Assembly (NCBI GenBank): GCA_024281055.1
Contig: JAMXLF010000042.1
Coordinates: 1 to 41,063, forward strand
Direction: 5' to 3'
From: Geobacteraceae bacterium
Lineage (GTDB): Bacteria > Desulfobacterota > Desulfuromonadia > Geobacterales > Geobacteraceae
DNA length: 41,063 bases
In this document: piece by piece, positions 30,583 through 41,063 of the stretch
Position numbering within the stretch: the first letter of the stretch is position 1
Layout: each line of letters opens with the position of its first letter
The notes under the pieces: generated by a model
Told to the model about the DNA's origin: nothing
The model's input: only the letters and a program-made list of their open reading frames with translations
The model's database searches: none
Program-made: the position numbers and the translations under genes

Positions 30583-30600
30583 CTGGGAAGCAAAAAAACA

Positions 30601-30656
30601 CCCTAGCGACTAGGAGGGCAAGTCAGCTAGGGCATAATGAGAGTCTCGCGACTCTC
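30601..30656. other. Two adjacent hairpins in the activator upstream region
   Basis: CCCTAGC (30601-30607) pairs with GCTAGGG (30626-30632); GAGAGTC (30639-30645) pairs with GACTCTC (30650-30656) around TCGC. No long T-run follows. The 375-bp intergenic stretch 30474-30848 holds these, the palindromes and an A+T-rich segment, and no gene. Confidence 0.5.
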
Positions 30657-30790
30657 GCAATATGTTCTTTTCTATAATTATTATAATGCCGGGGTATATC
30701 TGGCGCAAGCAAAAAAAAGATTAAAAAAACTGAAGAATACGGGATGGTTTTTAATGTTGCCATGGGTTTCAAGGGGGGAAGCTCTCCGCA

Positions 30791-35316: not shown

Positions 35317-38300
35317 CGGAACTCCCCTGCACCTGCTTTGACCTCAGGGATTTCGAGAAGATCATCCGCAATCCCGCCAGGGCAGACGACAAGAAGCTCA
35401 TCGCACTCTACAAGATTCTTTCCCCTTCGCATCTGCTCAAGCAACCCTTTGCCAACGATAGCAACTCCCTCAACAGGGAGTTCTACGGCGAACTCCTCCA
35501 CATTCTCGGCCTGGAGGAGGTGAAGGACAAGGGGAAGAAGCTCATCCGGCGCAAGCCCGAAGGGGCGCGGCACCCCGGCTCCCTCCTGGAGAACGCCATC
35601 AACATCCTCACGGTCCGCCACAAGTTGCCGGCAGCCGGCGCAGATGTAGGTGCGCAGCATGCTGCGCCCGATGACGCCCAGGCGTTCAGCATCGCCCTGG
35701 AGCTCTGCATCACCTGGCTCAACCGGATTCTCTTCCTCAAGCTCCTGGAAGGACAACTCATCGCCTACCAGAAAGGGAACCGCGACTATGCCTTCCTGAA
35801 TGGCGGCCGCATCAGCGACTTCGACGAGCTGGACGAGCTCTTCTTCGAGGTGCTGGCGGTCCGTGTCGCCGACCGTTCCGAGCCGGTCCGGAAGAAGTTC
35901 GGAAACATTCCCTATCTGAACAGCTCCCTCTTTGAGGAGAGTGACCTGGAACAAAAGACCATCCATATGTCCGCGCTCAAGGGGCGCCTGGACGTGCCGC
36001 TTTACAATGCCACGGTGCTGAAGGATGCCGCCGGCAAGCGCCGGACGGGCGACAAGAGCACCCTCCACTACCTGTTCGAGTTCCTCGACGCCTACGACTT
36101 CGGGGCCGAAGGGGGTGCCGAGATCCAGGAGCAGAACAAGACCATCATCAACGCTTCGGTTCTTGGTCTCATCTTCGAAAAGATCAACGGCTACAAGGAC
36201 GGCTCCTTCTTCACTCCGGGCTTCATCACCATGTACATCTGTCGCGAGACCCTGCGGCGAGCCGTGGTGCGGAAATTCAACGAACGTTACGGCTGGGAGT
36301 GCAAAGACCTCACCGAGGTATATAACCGCATCGATCCGGGCAGGTTGAGAGAGGCGAACGAGGTCGTGAACAGCCTGAAAATCTGCGACCCCGCCGTCGG
36401 CTCCGGGCATTTCCTCGTCTCGGCCTTGAACGAGATCATCGCCATCAAGTCTGAGCTGGGCATCCTCATCGACCGGGACGGGAAGCGGCTGCGCGGCTAC
36501 AGCGTCACCATCGAGAACGACGAGCTGATCATCACCGGCGACGATCACTTTTTCGAGTACAACTACCGGGACCCGGAATCGCAGCGGGTGCAGGAAACGC
36601 TCTTTCATGAGAAGGAGTCGCTCATCGAAAACTGCCTCTTCGGCGTCGACATCAACCCCAAGTCGGTCGCCATCTGCCGCCTGCGCCTCTGGATCGAGCT
36701 CCTGAAGAACGCCTACTACACCAAAGAGAGCGGCTACGCCGAGCTGGAGACCCTCCCCAACATAGACATCAACATCAAGTGCGGCAATTCCCTGGTGAGC
36801 CGCTTTGCGATAATCGGCAACCCGAACATCCTTCCCGGCGACCGGAAGAAGCTGAAGGAGCTGACGGAGAGGTACCGTCGCCACGTCTTCGAGTACAAAC
36901 TCTCGCCGGCCAATAGGGCACAGCTGCGCAAGGTGATCGACAATCTCAAGCACGATCTGGAGAACTTCGGTCTTCCCAATGACAGGGATCTGATGGCCCT
37001 CTGGAAGGCGAAGGACGAGCTGGCCCAACTCTCCCTTTTTGGCTTTGACAGGAAGGAACAGGAGCGCAGGCAGAAATTGCACGAGAAGGTTGTCGAGCTT
37101 GAGAGGCGTTTCGAGGAGAAGCAGCGGCTGGTTTACGCCAACGCCTTCGAGTGGCGCTTCGAGTTTCCTGAGGTGCTGGACGAAAACGGCGAATTCATCG
37201 GGTTTGACGCGGTGATCGGCAACCCGCCCTACATCCGCCAGGAAGCGATCAAGGAGCAGAAACCGGCGCTCATGGAGATGTTCGGCACCTTCTACTGCGG
37301 CACCGCCGACATTTACACCTACTTCTACAAGACCGGCATAAACCTCCTCAAGACCGGCGCAACCCTCTGTTACATCGCCCCAAACAAATTCATGCGGGCG
37401 GGCTACGGAAGGAACACGCGCGAGCTGCTGACCACCCAGGCAAAGCCACTTCAGGTGCTTGATTTCGGCGACCTCCCCGTTTTCGACGAGGCGACCACTT
37501 ATCCCTCAATTGTGATGGTGGAGAAGGCAACCCCCCTCAATCCCCCATTATCAGGGGGGAGGCGAAAATCACCCGGGTCTAGCTCCCTCCCTGACAAGGG
37601 AGGGCGGGGGGTGGGTTCATTCCTCGCCGCCACCTTTACCGGCCCCGAACAGCTCACCCGCTTCGCCGAAGCGCTCCCCACCATCGGCTTTACCATGCCG
37701 GTTTCAGCGCTCAAAGCTGAGGGGTGGACGTTGGAGCAACCGGATGTTCATGCGCTACTGGAGAAGCTTCACAGAAAAGGCAAACCCTTGTCGGAATTCA
37801 TCGACCGGCAGATCTATTACGGGATCAAAACGGGATTGAACGAAGCCTTCGTCATCGACGAAGAGACCCGGCAGCGGCTTGTTGCCGAAGACCCCAAAAG
37901 CGAGGAGGTCATCAAACCGTGGTTGCGGGGAAAGGATATCTTTAAGTGGAAGGCAAAATGGGCTGGGCTTTACCTTATCGCTATTGCCAGCAGTGCCAAT
38001 AAGGCGTGGCGTTGGTCAAATGAGGGAAGCGAGGAAGCAGCTCGACGTCTGTTTGAGCTGGAATATCCGGCTATTCACAGGCATATGTCCAGATGGGAAG
38101 AAAAACTGAGGAAACGAGATGACCAAGGACGATTCTGGTGGGAATTACGATCTTGTGCTTATTATGAAGAGTTTGACAAACCGAAAATTCTCTGGCCCGG
38201 CATCAGCGCGGAGCTTACTGTGTTCTCCCTTGACGAGCAAGGGTTTTACGGCAACGACAATAACCAGCTCATCATCTCCGGGGACCGTTGCCTTCTAGCT

Positions 38301-38573
38301 ATCCTCAATTCAAAGCTGGCAAATTTTGTGCTGAGGCATACGTGTGACAAGGTGCAAGGCGGATTTTACCGGCTTAAGATCATCTACATCGAACAACTCC
38401 CCATCCCGAAGGCCACCAACGCCCAGAAAACCCCAATCATCGACCGCGTCGAAAAAATCCTCGCCGATCCCGACAGCCCTGATGTCCCGCTGCTTGAGGC
38501 GGAGATCGACCGGCTGGTGTACGAGTTGTACGGGCTGACGGAGGAAGAGATTACGGTGGTGGAGGGGAAATAA
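35289..38573 (+). CDS. Methyltransferase and target-recognition fragment of the type IIG system
   Basis: Frame open from 35289; the first usable start is GTG 35520, preceded by GGAGGAG, giving 1017 residues. The adenine-N6 methylase has motif I CDPAVGSGHFLVSAL and motif IV FDAVIGNPPYIRQE (NPPY). The target-recognition part follows from about residue 740. Residues 674-700 come from an inserted repeat and are low-complexity; a 16-bp palindrome at 35652 encodes AQHAA. If translated from GTG it may still methylate DNA without the nuclease, which would be safe for the cell. Confidence 0.75.
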   Translation, partial: ARPHIEKELTELPCTCFDLRDFEKIIRNPARADDKKLIALYKILSPSHLLKQPFANDSNSLNREFYGELLHILGLEEVKDKGKKLIRRKPEGARHPGSLLENAINILTVRHKLPAAGADVGAQHAAPDDAQAFSIALELCITWLNRILFLKLLEGQLIAYQKGNRDYAFLNGGRISDFDELDELFFEVLAVRVADRSEPVRKKFGNIPYLNSSLFEESDLEQKTIHMSALKGRLDVPLYNATVLKDAAGKRRTGDKSTLHYLFEFLDAYDFGAEGGAEIQEQNKTIINASVLGLIFEKINGYKDGSFFTPGFITMYICRETLRRAVVRKFNERYGWECKDLTEVYNRIDPGRLREANEVVNSLKICDPAVGSGHFLVSALNEIIAIKSELGILIDRDGKRLRGYSVTIENDELIITGDDHFFEYNYRDPESQRVQETLFHEKESLIENCLFGVDINPKSVAICRLRLWIELLKNAYYTKESGYAELETLPNIDINIKCGNSLVSRFAIIGNPNILPGDRKKLKELTERYRRHVFEYKLSPANRAQLRKVIDNLKHDLENFGLPNDRDLMALWKAKDELAQLSLFGFDRKEQERRQKLHEKVVELERRFEEKQRLVYANAFEWRFEFPEVLDENGEFIGFDAVIGNPPYIRQEAIKEQKPALMEMFGTFYCGTADIYTYFYKTGINLLKTGATLCYIAPNKFMRAGYGRNTRELLTTQAKPLQVLDFGDLPVFDEATTYPSIVMVEKATPLNPPLSGGRRKSPGSSSLPDKGGRGVGSFLAATFTGPEQLTRFAEALPTIGFTMPVSALKAEGWTLEQPDVHALLEKLHRKGKPLSEFIDRQIYYGIKTGLNEAFVIDEETRQRLVAEDPKSEEVIKPWLRGKDIFKWKAKWAGLYLIAIASSANKAWRWSNEGSEEAARRLFELEYPAIHRHMSRWEEKLRKRDDQGRFWWELRSCAYYEEFDKPKILWPGISAELTVFSLDEQGFYGNDNNQLIISGDRCLLAILNSKLANFVLRHTCDKVQGGFYRLKIIYIEQLPIPKATNAQKTPIIDRVEKILADPDSPDVPLLEAEIDRLVYELYGLTEEEITVVEGK
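35652..35667. repeat. 16-bp palindrome inside the methylase frame
   Basis: GCGCAGCATGCTGCGC within GTAGGTGCGC... resembles the GTAGGGGCG palindrome family; it encodes a short Ala/His stretch. Confidence 0.5.
37530..37618. repeat. Palindromic repeat inserted in frame in the methylase gene
   Basis: Contains TCCCCCATTATCAGGGGGGA and a second hairpin CCCTCCCT-GAC-AAGGGAGGG, with outer AACCCCCCTCAATC and GGGGGGTGGGTT arms. It is translated as NPPLSGGRRKSPGS then SSLPDKGGRGVGS, a low-complexity peptide unlike its surroundings, typical of repeat elements that tolerate translation. Confidence 0.75.
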
Positions 38574-38619
38574 CAGAGAAAGCCTCAAATAGGACGGAAT
38601 GGATATAATAACCAATGTG

Positions 38620-38636
38620 TTAACCTTTTACGTTAA
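38620..38636. promoter_or_regulatory. Candidate higBA operator
   Basis: TTAAC-CTTTTAC-GTTAA dyad 24 bp before higB, downstream of a perfect TATAAT at 38604-38609. Confidence 0.4.
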
Positions 38637-38641
38637 TAAAA

Positions 38642-38670
38642 TTGACTTTGGCCTGAAACATGGTTATAGT
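38642..38670 (+). promoter_or_regulatory. Strong promoter-like pair overlapping the higB start
   Basis: TTGACT (38642-38647), 17 bp, TATAGT (38665-38670). Transcripts would begin after the higB ATG, so it could express the antitoxin without the toxin. Confidence 0.4.
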
Positions 38671-38998
38671 ATATAAAACCTCAAAGCTCGAAAAAGAATG
38701 CAACGAAGCGAAACTCATGGTCAAAAAACATGGACCTGTGCGGGCAAAGCTTCTCCAAAAGCGGCTCACTGAACTCCGCGCCGCTGCCGTCCTGGTAGAT
38801 ATCTTCAGACTCCCCCAGGTCCGTTGCCATGAACTGCGCGAAAACCGCAAAGGTGAGCTTGCCGTGGACCTCGACCACCCCTACCGCCTTATCTTCGAAC
38901 CTGCAGACGAACCGATACCAACGAAGCCCGATGGCGGGCTCGACTGGACAAGAGTAACCAGCATCCGGATTATAGAGATAAAGGATTATCATGAGTAA
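38660..38998 (+). CDS. higB: HigB-type RelE-family toxin
   Basis: 112 residues of the killer-protein HigB/RelE family, ribosome-dependent mRNA interferases. Family segments visible: YKTSKLEKECNEAKLMVKKH, KLLQKRLTELRAA, LPQVRCHELRENRKGELAVD, LDHPYRLIFEPA and the C-terminal IRIIEIKDYHE. The start at 38660 has no good ribosome site, though homologues begin here. It overlaps the antitoxin by 8 bp (38991-38998), giving toxin-first order, characteristic of HigBA. Confidence 0.88.
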   Translation: MVIVYKTSKLEKECNEAKLMVKKHGPVRAKLLQKRLTELRAAAVLVDIFRLPQVRCHELRENRKGELAVDLDHPYRLIFEPADEPIPTKPDGGLDWTRVTSIRIIEIKDYHE

Positions 38999-40073
38999 CA
39001 CGACGAATCAGTTTCTCCCCGATTATGCCGTACCTCCCGGCGAGACGCTGCTTGACACCATCGAGGCGCTCGGCATGTCGCAGGCGGAGCTTGCGGAGCG
39101 TACCGGCAGACCGAAAAAAACCATCAACGAAATCATCAAGGGGAAGGCGCCGATCACCCCTGAGACGGCCTTGCAGCTGGAGCGGGTGCTGGGCGTTCCC
39201 GCCCGCTTCTGGAACAACTTGGAAAACAATTACCGTGAGACTGTTGCCAGGCTTGCGGAACAAGAGCGACTGAGTGCCCATGTTGCGTGGCTCAACGAAA
39301 TTCCTGTCAAAGCCCTTGTCAAGCTGGGTTGGATAAAGTCCTTCACCGACAAAGTCCAACAACTTCAGGAAGTGTTGAGTTATTTCGGCGTAGCTTCGCC
39401 CGAACAGTGGCGCGAACTCTGGTCTAGTGAAACCCAAGTCGCCTATCGTGAATCGCCGGTATTCAAACGAGATCCCGGCATTGTGTCGGCTTGGCTTCGG
39501 AAAGGCGAACTTGTTGCAAGGGGGATGGACTGTAGGCCGTTTGATGCAGCGCGGTTCAGGGCTGCCCTACAAGAAGTTCGCAGGCTGACCAACCAGTTGC
39601 CGGAGGTTTTTCAGCCGGAAGTGAAGAGATTATGCGCAGAAGCAGGCGTTGCCGTGGTCTTCGTTCCCGAGTTGCCGAAGATGCATACAAGTGGCGCCAC
39701 ATGGTGGCTGACACCGACTAAGGCGGTCATCCTGCTGAGTCTGCGTTACAAGAGCGACGATCAGCTGTGGTTCAGCTTCTTCCACGAAGCGGGACACATA
39801 CTTCTCCACGGCAAAAAAGACGTTTTTATCGAGGATGATAATAAAGGGGCCAAGGAAGCAGAGGCCAACCGGTTTGCCGCGGATACGCTGGTTCCCGGGA
39901 AAAAACTTCAAATTTTCTTTCAAACGTCGAGACTGAGCAAGCAGGCGATCGCAAAATTTGCCGCGGAAATCGGTGTCGCCCCCGGAATTGTCGTGGGCAG
40001 GTTACAGCATGACGGTCGGTTACCTCACACCCACTGCAACGACCTCAAACGACGCTTGGTGTGGGCAGCTTGA
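38991..40073 (+). CDS. higA: HigA-type antitoxin fused to an ImmA/IrrE-like peptidase domain
   Basis: 360 residues. Helix-turn-helix XRE domain at about 15-75 (PGETLLDTIEALGMSQAELA, TGRPKKTINEIIKG, ERVLGVPARFWNNLE), typical of HigA. The C-terminal half is a zinc peptidase domain with HEAGH at 265-269 (FSFFHEAGHILLHG) and a following Glu in KEAEANRFA, as in ImmA/IrrE. So antitoxin and protease lie on one chain, which could let stress signals cleave it or a partner. Ribosome site AAAGG precedes the ATG. Confidence 0.88.
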   Translation: MSNTTNQFLPDYAVPPGETLLDTIEALGMSQAELAERTGRPKKTINEIIKGKAPITPETALQLERVLGVPARFWNNLENNYRETVARLAEQERLSAHVAWLNEIPVKALVKLGWIKSFTDKVQQLQEVLSYFGVASPEQWRELWSSETQVAYRESPVFKRDPGIVSAWLRKGELVARGMDCRPFDAARFRAALQEVRRLTNQLPEVFQPEVKRLCAEAGVAVVFVPELPKMHTSGATWWLTPTKAVILLSLRYKSDDQLWFSFFHEAGHILLHGKKDVFIEDDNKGAKEAEANRFAADTLVPGKKLQIFFQTSRLSKQAIAKFAAEIGVAPGIVVGRLQHDGRLPHTHCNDLKRRLVWAA

Positions 40074-40116
40074 GAGGTCGAAAGGTAGCCACCTGAAAGT
40101 AAAAGGAAATTTTTTC

Positions 40117-40149
40117 TTGACTTTACCCGGCTAATCCGGCAACTATAGT
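40117..40149 (+). promoter_or_regulatory. Promoter of the DAHP synthase leader
   Basis: TATAGT at 40144-40149 with TTTACC 16 bp upstream (40122-40127); TTGACT at 40117 is 21 bp away and less likely. The expected start of RNA, about 40155, falls at the leader ATG (40154), so the leader mRNA may lack a 5' untranslated region. Confidence 0.5.
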
Positions 40150-40153
40150 TCCC

Positions 40154-40240
40154 ATGATTAACGCCAGCTTCTTCGCCTATTTTAACTTTTACTTTTGGTA
40201 CGGCTTTTATTTTCGGCCGTCTGCCCGGGTAGAGGTTTGA
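40154..40240 (+). CDS. Aromatic-rich leader peptide controlling DAHP synthase
   Basis: 28 codons. Residues 6-20 hold 12 aromatic residues (7 Phe, 4 Tyr, 1 Trp: FFAYFNFYFWYGFYF), then RPSARVEV and TGA. Such runs occur in attenuator leaders where stalled ribosomes at scarce aminoacyl-tRNAs change RNA folding. Downstream lie two hairpins and the DAHP synthase gene, the first enzyme of aromatic amino acid synthesis. There is no ribosome binding site upstream, and the promoter places the RNA start at the ATG, so leaderless translation is likely, as reported for TrpL in alpha-proteobacteria. It can sense all three aromatic amino acids. Confidence 0.85.
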   Translation: MINASFFAYFNFYFWYGFYFRPSARVEV

Positions 40241-40273
40241 TTTAGGGGAAAGCTGAACTAAATTACACGACCG

Positions 40274-40321
40274 AAAGCCGAGGGTGGACAGGAAACCAAA
40301 CCCCCGGCTTTTTCAGTTTTT
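40274..40321 (+). terminator. Attenuator terminator of the DAHP synthase leader
   Basis: AAAGCCG (40274-40280) pairs with CGGCTTT (40305-40311) and adjacent GGG with CCC, followed by TTTTTCAGTTTTT. CGGCTTT at 40201-40207 in the leader reading frame is complementary to the same AAAGCCG arm, and TTTCGG (40211-40216) to CCGAAA (40271-40276), so an alternative antiterminator pairing is possible. Confidence 0.7.
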
Positions 40322-40327
40322 AGAGCA

Positions 40328-40370
40328 CGATGACGGCCGGGGGAAGGAATCCTCCGGCCGTCATCGTTTT
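40328..40370 (+). terminator. Second hairpin terminator-like element upstream of DAHP synthase
   Basis: 13-bp perfect stem CGATGACGGCCGG / CCGGCCGTCATCG with a 13-nt loop that can pair further, followed by TTTT, ending about 25 bp before the DAHP synthase start. Confidence 0.6.
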
Positions 40371-40394
40371 CGGGGAAAAGAAAGGGGAAGGGAG

Positions 40395-41063
40395 ATGATC
40401 ATCGTCATGAAGGCAGGTGCGGCAAAGAAGGACAAGGACGAGGTGCTGAAGCGGATCAAGGAGCTGGGGTACAAGCCCCACGTGATCCACGGCACCACGC
40501 GGGACGTGATCGGTGCGGTGGGGGACGAGCGGGGGAAGCAGGTATTGCAGGGGATCGAGTCGATGCACGGGGTGGAGAGCGTGGTTCCCATCCTTCAGCC
40601 TTACAAGCTCGCGTCCAAGGAGGTGAAGCGGGAGCCGAGCATCATCCCCATCGGCGAGTCGGTCAGTATCGGTGGCCGGGAACTGGTCGTCATGGCCGGT
40701 CCCTGTTCGGTGGAGAGCGAGGAGCAGATCATCGCCACGGCGCAGGCGGTGAAGGAGGCGGGCGCACAGGTGCTCCGTGGCGGGGCATTCAAGCCGCGGA
40801 CTTCCCCGTATTCCTTCCAGGGGCTGGAGGAGGAGGGGCTGAAGCTTCTGGCCAAGGCGCGGGAGCTGACCGGCCTTCCCGTGGTCACCGAGGTAATCAA
40901 CCCTGAGACCGCCGAACTCGTCGCCGCCTATGCCGACATCCTCCAGATTGGGGCGCGCAACGCCCAGAACTTCGCTCTCCTGAAAAAGGTGGGGCAGCTC
41001 CGGAAACCGGTTCTCCTCAAGCGGGGGATGTCCATGACCATCCAGGAGTTCCTCATGAGCGCA
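40395..41063 (+). CDS. aroF: 3-deoxy-7-phosphoheptulonate (DAHP) synthase, N-terminal part
   Basis: First enzyme of the shikimate pathway (PEP plus erythrose 4-phosphate to DAHP). The 223 residues visible include an N-terminal ferredoxin-like (ACT-type) domain ([20 protein letters not shown]) common in the type I-beta subfamily, then the TIM-barrel start with [31 protein letters not shown] and [20 protein letters not shown], then IGARNAQNF and [17 protein letters not shown] at 40395 follows GGGGAAGGGAG. The regulatory leader above predicts control by aromatic supply. The gene continues past the window. Confidence 0.95.

Follow-up and report, generated by a model that had tools for sequence, protein, structure and literature searches.

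An aromatic-rich leader ORF before a DAHP synthase gene of Geobacteraceae is probably part of a ribosome-mediated attenuator

How DAHP synthase, the enzyme at the entry of the common pathway to the aromatic amino acids, is controlled in a Geobacteraceae bacterium is the question raised by the end of the window, the 41,063-nt stretch of DNA analyzed here. The gene (40395..41063, + strand) encodes a type I-beta enzyme recognized by the Pfam domains DAHP_snth_FXD (PF18152; ferredoxin-like, N-terminal) and DAHP_synth_1 (PF00793; catalytic). It is truncated where the contig stops at 41063, and NCBIfam models for 3-deoxy-7-phosphoheptulonate synthase match the truncated product below their whole-protein cut-offs. 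Upstream lies a short ORF (40154..40240, + strand; 28 codons plus TGA, MINASFFAYFNFYFWYGFYFRPSARVEV), conserved among relatives, which the original prediction took for the leader peptide of an attenuator. Its control region (40169..40213, + strand) consists of 15 codons, of which 12, at peptide positions 6–20, specify Phe, Tyr or Trp, with the Trp codon at 40196-40198. None of 5,000 dinucleotide-preserving shuffles of 40074-40394 yielded an ATG-started ORF with 12 aromatics (best 9), and the leader frame is the sole stop-closed frame on both strands of the window with at least eight aromatics in 15. A peptide profile search of the window's genome returned one match, at the leader locus only. 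Translation and the shuffle test therefore bear out the predicted 28-codon ORF with 12 aromatics in 15, as folding and Pfam domains do the terminator hairpin and DAHP synthase gene said to follow it.

To follow the leader across relatives, we sought DAHP synthase in 58 family and order genomes. Orthologues were found in 56, including a stop-codon-broken, 66% identical gene in G028 (L056) that was still counted; G018 and G057 carried only a paralogue (~54%). Of the 57 order loci read, window included, 56 have the peptide ahead of the gene. Upstream regions without an aromatic ORF, against which the original prediction had staked itself, were confined to G128 (L270), where about 40 nt separate the gene from a preceding reading frame and there is no leader region; this is a natural loss of the attenuator and leaves the odds of the attenuation reading unchanged. 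Across a larger order sample, 95 genomes had the gene at E 1e-80 and the peptide profile matched 94 of them, a co-occurrence per genome in which gene and match positions were compared in part; the order genomes G166 and G194 had no gene at this threshold.

The 56 leader ORFs comprise 26–36 codons, share the motif FW[YCFS]G[FY] and in most cases end in a PSAR-like tail. They contain 7–13 aromatic residues (median 11; 56/56 loci with an ORF), with Trp and Phe present in all 56 order peptides and Tyr in 55. Within codons −3 to +3 around Trp, however, Tyr is absent in 12/56, and the proposal that one leader senses all three amino acids thus applies to Phe and Trp at all loci, with Tyr missing from this core in those 12. 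Aromatic identity persists through codon changes, in agreement with the expectation that the aromatic content of the peptide, not just the DNA, is conserved: alignment column 19 holds Tyr in 25 and Phe in 18 of 54 sequences, encoded by TAT, TTC, TAC and TTT, and column 37 holds Phe in 50/54, encoded by TTT and TTC, with Phe column 43 and Trp column 46 invariant. Mismatch frequencies at the three codon positions were 0.39, 0.56 and 0.46 in the N-terminal half of the leader alignment, where no third-position excess was seen, and 0.11, 0.16 and 0.18 in the C-terminal half, where such an excess is slight. Position 2 is where Phe and Tyr codons differ, and in the C-terminal half the RNA itself is under constraint.

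This constraint coincides with the parts of a switch. Region 1 (ACGGC; 40200..40204, + strand) pairs with 40216-40220 in a 1:2 protector hairpin. Region 2 (GUCUGCCCGG; 40219..40228, + strand), which spells the codons P-S-A-R, is the 5′ side of an antiterminator and pairs with region 3 (CC-GA-GGGUGGAC; 40278..40289, + strand). In particular, codons 22–25 (CCG TCT GCC CGG) hold GUCUGCCC, whose partner in the 5′ arm and loop of the terminator is GGGUGGAC. The putative intrinsic terminator (3:4; AAAGCCGAGGG..CCCCCGGCUUU plus U-run; 40274..40313, + strand), identified by folding and by pairing among relatives, comprises a hairpin at 40274-40311 and a U-run at 40309-40313, and the stretch 40241-40324 folds at z −2.6. 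A simple terminator scan of the window did not list the 40274-40313 hairpin, probably because of a stem mismatch and the long loop. Region 3 is common to the antiterminator and the terminator, so the two structures are mutually exclusive. The antiterminator had not been named in the original prediction; it was found here as a covarying helix compatible with stalling at aromatic codons.

Covariation scores come from an alignment in which two identical rows of the 56 were omitted, leaving 54 distinct loci; kinship among loci can by itself raise such scores. In the antiterminator, 91.6% of cells are paired, compared with 33–47% for partners slid by 1–3 columns, and the covariation score of 0.169 exceeds that of shuffled alignments (0.094 ± 0.010) in all cases (0/500 shuffles reach it). 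Its mean duplex energy was −19.0, against −17.6 ± 0.3 with permuted partners (48 distinct pairs). Three 2:3 pairs changed on both sides, a weak measure since 15/500 shuffles reach it. Alignment pair 73-143 occurs as G-U (23), G-C (14), A-U (10) and C-G (5), and an Ala-to-Thr codon change (GCC to ACC) goes with partner U, partner C never occurring with ACC. The protector helix, formed by TACGGC (Tyr/Cys-Gly codons) and GGCCGT, is paired in 93.7% of cells (13–64% in slid controls) and scores 0.183, against 0.145 ± 0.007 in shuffled alignments. Seven loci replace a C-G with a U-A pair here (GGC..GCC to GGT..ACC), and the 1:2 helix is broken in L048; the count of 1:2 pairs changed on both sides is a weak measure, as 408/500 shuffles reach the observed value. 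For the terminator, 89.2% of cells are paired, and a partner slid by +1 scores 0.137, more than the true register (0.121); its helix is therefore less well aligned.

A U-run of at least four follows the first hairpin in 48/56 order loci and is absent from eight (L030, L035, L043, L044, L046, L049, L051 and L052), which keep the leader and the antiterminator pairing. Apart from L030, they belong to one genus, which is probably Geomonas because Geomonas propionica L164 has an identical peptide. RNAalifold on the whole alignment returned the second hairpin described below and a variant of 1:2 in which GG of the Trp codon pairs with CC; it did not return 2:3, 3:4 or the long-range helix P1, of which 2:3 and P1 cross. 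A candidate crossing pair between GGCUUU (codons Gly-Phe) and AAAGCC of the terminator was dropped, its conservation being due to region 1 and the Phe codon.

We then modeled ribosome position in silico for the 56 loci, with the transcript cut after region 3 and the footprint edge set 12 nt past the first A-site base. Pairing 2:3 forms in 56/56 loci when Phe14, Trp15, codon 16 or Phe18 occupies the A site, and in 0/56 when Phe20 or the stop codon does. In a codon-by-codon scan, region 2 was free in 56/56 from Trp−5 to Trp+3, in 54/56 at Trp+4 and in 0/56 at Trp+5, and the aromatic run thus ends where stalling stops freeing region 2. Footprint edges of +9, +12 and +15 move this switch point by one codon per step, and in the window leader region 2 stays free with the A site as far along as Tyr19. 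In these models, the control codons are placed so that a stalled ribosome would free region 2 and a terminating one would cover it. The attenuation reading of the original prediction hence gains support from a covarying antiterminator whose geometry suits stalling at aromatic codons. When no ribosome was placed on the transcript to region 3, 2:3 formed in 23/56 and 1:2 in 49/56. Equilibrium folding of the complete leader gave the terminator despite a ribosome on Trp in 46/56 loci and on Phe18 in 42/56; the decision must consequently be kinetic, made during transcription, as is usual for ribosome-mediated attenuators.

The preferred reading, with a probability of roughly 0.84, is that the DAHP synthase gene is controlled by ribosome-mediated transcription attenuation that senses Phe, Trp and usually Tyr. 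Judged from sequence, the leader very probably serves as a starvation sensor that switches DAHP synthase on when aromatics run short. RNA polymerase would start on or beside the leader AUG, and the ribosome would begin at the 5′ end of the transcript. Were too little aminoacylated tRNA available for Phe, for Trp or, at most loci, for Tyr, the ribosome would halt in the aromatic run, covering region 1 and leaving region 2, with its PSAR codons, free. Free region 2 would pair with region 3, the terminator would be blocked and DAHP synthase would be transcribed. With all aromatics plentiful, the ribosome would pass Phe20 to the stop codon and cover region 2, and terminator 3:4 would form. If the leader were not translated at all, hairpin 1:2 would tend to hold region 2, favoring termination.

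The expected start of transcription follows from the promoter. A −35 box (TTGACT; 40117..40122, + strand), with a TTGAC-to-ATG spacing that is kept in relatives, is followed after a spacer of 18 by a −10 box (AACTAT; 40141..40146, + strand) 7 nt before the ATG, giving a predicted transcription start at ~40153-40155, on the leader ATG. A simple promoter scan of the window gave one overlapping 9/12 match (40122-40149). An in-frame ATG occurs 29–32 nt after TTGAC[AT] in 56/56 order loci; when the best TTGACA match was chosen first, 54/56 had the same spacing, the remaining two being mis-picked boxes. The best −10 lies at a spacer of 17 or 18 in 46/56 loci and 6 or 7 nt before the ATG in 47/56. 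A Shine-Dalgarno run of at least 4 nt was found in 6/53 distinct leader upstreams, compared with 56/56 for DAHP synthase and ~27% of random stretches; within the order, Shine-Dalgarno matches before the leader ATG are accordingly not above background, 47/53 distinct upstreams having no run of at least 4 nt. From the fixed −35/−10/ATG spacing together with this lack of a Shine-Dalgarno signal above background, transcription should therefore begin on the AUG, and the leader mRNA in this order looks leaderless. Outside the order, 25/35 leaders carry a Shine-Dalgarno match of at least 4 nt (background 27%), a count that favors matches because the start codon was picked for the best one. For this reason, the apparently leaderless form seems to be a trait of the order.

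Between the terminator and the DAHP synthase start lies a second, very stable hairpin (40327..40367, + strand; −39.3 kcal/mol, z −7.8). It covaries, consensus pair 226-258 (alignment columns) being changed on both sides in 24/54. Both hairpins are enclosed by a long-range helix, P1, whose 5′ arm (CCGAAAGC; 40271..40278, + strand) finds its best pairing with the 3′ arm (GUUUUCGG; 40366..40373, + strand), which lies just ahead of the ribosome binding site of DAHP synthase, and P1 stops short of that site; orthologous pairs covary. Over 52 distinct loci, the mean P1 score was 17.3, against 14.9 ± 0.3 with permuted partners (0/300 reaching it). Many loci have CCGAAA..UUUCGG, others CCGGAA..UUCCGG, CCAAAAGC..GCUUUUGG or CCACAAA..UUUGUGG, and in a few (for example, L011, L040, L042 and L054) P1 has only 4–5 pairs. 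Its 5′ arm overlaps the terminator base, so P1 and the terminator are not complete simultaneously; being transcribed after the decision, P1 should act on readthrough mRNA. Among class members outside the order (L088-L127), we noted by eye that several have, ~100 nt before DAHP synthase, a helix like GGATCGAT..ATCGATCC that seems to enclose the second hairpin and to end before the ribosome binding site; it seems to be a counterpart of P1.

These downstream structures bear on the first alternative, in which the same leader and the same stalling act through Rho-dependent termination or through translational control by the second hairpin and P1. Both structures are conserved, covary and adjoin the ribosome binding site, and the eight loci without a U-run would also fit a non-intrinsic output. 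Hairpin and U-run are nevertheless kept in the other 48 of 56, and translational control is disfavored by P1 ending before the Shine-Dalgarno stretch in the sequences read. We consider such an output unlikely and retain attenuation at the intrinsic terminator as the preferred reading.

The leader extends beyond the order. The peptide profile matched 133 of 195 genomes of the class. Among 297 genomes of the phylum it gave nine matches, namely eight of the 12 class members shown and one outside the class, which is marginal (E 0.008, internal stop). Outside the order, 39 profile matches were found, of which 36 were examined, without G093, G134 and G207 (the ORF is present in G093); the stretch of L101 lacks DAHP synthase, and L121-L124, being order members, were omitted from the outside-order counts. 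In all 35 outside-order class loci with DAHP synthase in the stretch, each chosen by profile match, the leader stands before the gene. Of the 62 class genomes without a profile match, 20 outside the order were examined, as was G128 within it; of these 20 outside-order loci, 19 reach at least seven aromatics in 15 and 17 at least eight, compared with 3–6 on the reverse strand. The leader lies unusually far from the gene in L130 and L131 (247 and 336 nt). Loci of the 54% paralogue had no leader (0/12), with 2–6 aromatics in 15. One genome, G087, has two leaders on different contigs (L121 and L122), and both loci match DAHP synthase; only one of them reached E 1e-80, which may mean that the second gene is incomplete.

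Outside the order, the terminator stem differs (for example, ACCAUGGG..CCCAUGGU), and many loci keep GGGCAGAC, the perfect partner of GUCUGCCC. Loci with a divergent region 2 keep a matching region 3, as in GGCCTGCCCG/CGGGCAGGCT, CATCGACCCG/CGGGTTGATG and TCTGCCGTGG/CCATGGCAGA. For the 20 class loci L128-L147 (for example, L132, L136, L137, L142 and L143), the helix score was 22.4, against 20.6 ± 0.6 with permuted partners. In the 35 outside-order profile-match loci, the best helix scored 23.9, against 18.8 in shuffled DNA and 23.4 ± 0.26 with permuted partners, which it hardly beats because the motif itself is conserved.

For other classes and phyla, we analyzed 84 upstream regions (400 nt) of related DAHP synthases, omitting L189, L211, L241, L265 and L268. 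An ORF with at least six aromatics in 15 occurs in 36 and one with at least seven in 25, with 16 reaching six on the reverse strand. Within the last 60 nt of the aromatic ORF, GTCYGCCC is found in 15/36, compared with 0/16 on the reverse strand; the 15 (L181-L183, L187, L191, L194, L202, L215, L223, L240, L247, L249, L250, L258 and L269) belong to loci beyond the class, which include Rokubacteria and Syntrophus. Only this placement at the aromatic ORF's end is informative: the bare 8-mer occurs in 16/84 upstreams on the coding and 7/84 on the reverse strand and says little alone, and a loose search for the motif pair in the 84 upstreams (12 coding versus 9 reverse strand) was likewise uninformative by itself. 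In 11 of the 15, the motif takes part in the best helix that joins the ORF end to DNA beyond the stop, the exceptions being L194, L202, L223 and L249. The codon phase of the core beyond the class is 0 in 13 loci (V-C/R-P), 1 in one and 2 in one, giving the peptide readings VCP/VRP, SA and GLP; in the order, phase 2 was found in all 46 of 56 loci in which a looser form of the core was detected.

Either the loci share an ancestor whose RNA core was retained while the reading frame slid across it, or GTCYGCCC recurs by convergence. We tentatively entertain, at clearly less than even odds, an ancient switch in which GUCYGCCC and its partner GGGCRGAC were kept in primary sequence across several classes of the phylum and in Rokubacteria as the ORF slid over them in three frames (PSA, VCP/VRP and GLP), and to which the order of Geobacter added a leaderless start and P1, maybe linked to translation or mRNA stability. 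Under such an ancient switch, the frame slides over the kept core, so the RNA sequence rather than the peptide would be inherited, possibly owing to some reader of the core besides its self-pairing.

The shifting frame also weighs on a second alternative, an arrest peptide, in which free aromatic amino acids would cause the nascent chain, with its conserved WxGFxFRPSAR, to stall the ribosome. TnaC is such a peptide, its nascent chain stalling the ribosome. The leader has invariant M, F, W, G and F residues and a C terminus more conserved than control codons require, as an arrest sequence might. That C terminus, however, coincides with regions 1 and 2, and the same RNA core appears beyond the class in other codon phases (VCP, SA and GLP), which peptide sensing does not favor. 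Stalling in excess would moreover have the wrong sign for a biosynthetic gene, and we find an arrest peptide very improbable beside stalling at control codons.

Equally doubtful is a non-coding riboswitch or protein-binding RNA in which the T-rich stretch is an untranslated spacer: it would agree with the earlier description as a ‘predicted short RNA element’ (in the relevant part of PMC2700814) and with Shine-Dalgarno matches not above background in the order, but the ORF is open with an aligned ATG in 56/56, Phe/Tyr is kept through codon changes, 25/35 outside-order leaders have a Shine-Dalgarno match of at least 4 nt (starts chosen for the best match; background 27%) and no Rfam family matches. 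In the leader region, Rfam models for amino acid leaders, T-boxes and riboswitches gave no match at the gathering cut-off; permissive matches were to microRNA and unrelated sRNA models, and Rfam on 15 related loci returned one tRNA only.

The element appears to have been printed before. For G. metallireducens and G. sulfurreducens, a 2009 publication lists a predicted short RNA element upstream of the gene for one of two Thermotoga-type DAHP synthase isoenzymes; in the pertinent passages, this element (Gmet_R0069 = GSUR082) is treated among possible promoters and riboswitches with no mechanism and no mention of a peptide, and the strings ‘attenuat’ and ‘leader’ have no occurrence in the main text (PMC2700814). 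As far as that description goes, it resembles the window leader in that it is conserved in several Geobacteraceae and precedes a gene for DAHP synthase of the Thermotoga type. By position and paralogue exclusion, rather than by coordinates, it is very probably the same element. Among the matches listed in a search of open-licence titles and abstracts, no other account of a leader peptide or attenuator for a DAHP synthase gene in Geobacter was found.

In the classical E. coli pheL-pheA and trpL-trp systems, a stalled ribosome reads 1:2, 2:3 and 3:4 alternatives, and the leaders have a Shine-Dalgarno start. The window leader shares these alternatives, whereas the E. coli leaders sense one amino acid each and control different genes. 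For the C. glutamicum aroR-aroF attenuator, Neshat 2014 is said to be the source, and the ilvBNC leader peptide of that species reportedly lacks a ribosome binding site, going by the title of a reference. PMC11802643, which in the part concerned mentions the two E. coli attenuators, and PMC4046766 place a leader peptide before the C. glutamicum DAHP synthase gene; as there described, it resembles the window leader in its position and in a Phe-Tyr-Phe stretch and differs in having fewer control codons, no reported Trp and another phylum as host. Four of eight small mRNAs were leaderless in the C. glutamicum study, aroR-aroF not being specified in the portions concerned (PMC4046766, PMC11802643). 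In Acholeplasma, attenuation was proposed for the uORFC-13-1 motif before aroF (PMC8632094), which by its description there has a short Phe-containing ORF beside a terminator before DAHP synthase, as in the window, and differs by its ribosome binding site, by Phe being the only amino acid named and by its range (Acholeplasma and environmental sequences). Merino's database predicts putative attenuators before operons of the same enzyme type, I-beta DAHP synthase, for example in Thermus thermophilus; its Table 7 covers tyrA operons only, and in the rows shown Geobacter is absent and no leader peptide is described (PMC1173090). For trpL of Sinorhizobium meliloti, the section concerned describes a leader-peptide mRNA that begins at the ATG (PMC7298713); such a start is what is predicted for the window leader, from which trpL differs in sensing Trp only and preceding trpE(G).

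Attenuators before DAHP synthase are thus already known from C. glutamicum, proposed in Acholeplasma and predicted for this enzyme type. New are the proposed mechanism, its spread and the observation that the RNA core GUCYGCCC turns up outside the class as well, there in each of the three codon phases. A regulatory element of model metal-reducing bacteria whose earlier printed description gave no mechanism is now provided with a proposed one, and a single leader would gauge the availability of two or three amino acids where the pathway that they share begins. The loci also offer a natural series for attenuator studies, with an apparent change from Shine-Dalgarno-led to leaderless starts, a genus seemingly without a U-run, a genome that lost the leader and an RNA core constant under a changing reading frame.

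Several further features of the contig were recorded. Directly before the leader promoter, 35520-40073 is possibly a defence or toxin-antitoxin patch. It holds an Eco57I-type methyltransferase (35520-38573; PglX models match far below cut-off), a small ORF with no Pfam match (38660-38998) and a protein with a HigA-like HTH and an IrrE-type peptidase (38991-40073). The contig end within the DAHP synthase gene is overlapped by a second contig end of the same assembly (G000:C35:203397-203831) over 435 nt at 91.5% DNA identity, which suggests two strains or alleles in the assembly. Lastly, an Rfam atoC RNA lies at 30594-30684 on the − strand (84.5 bits).
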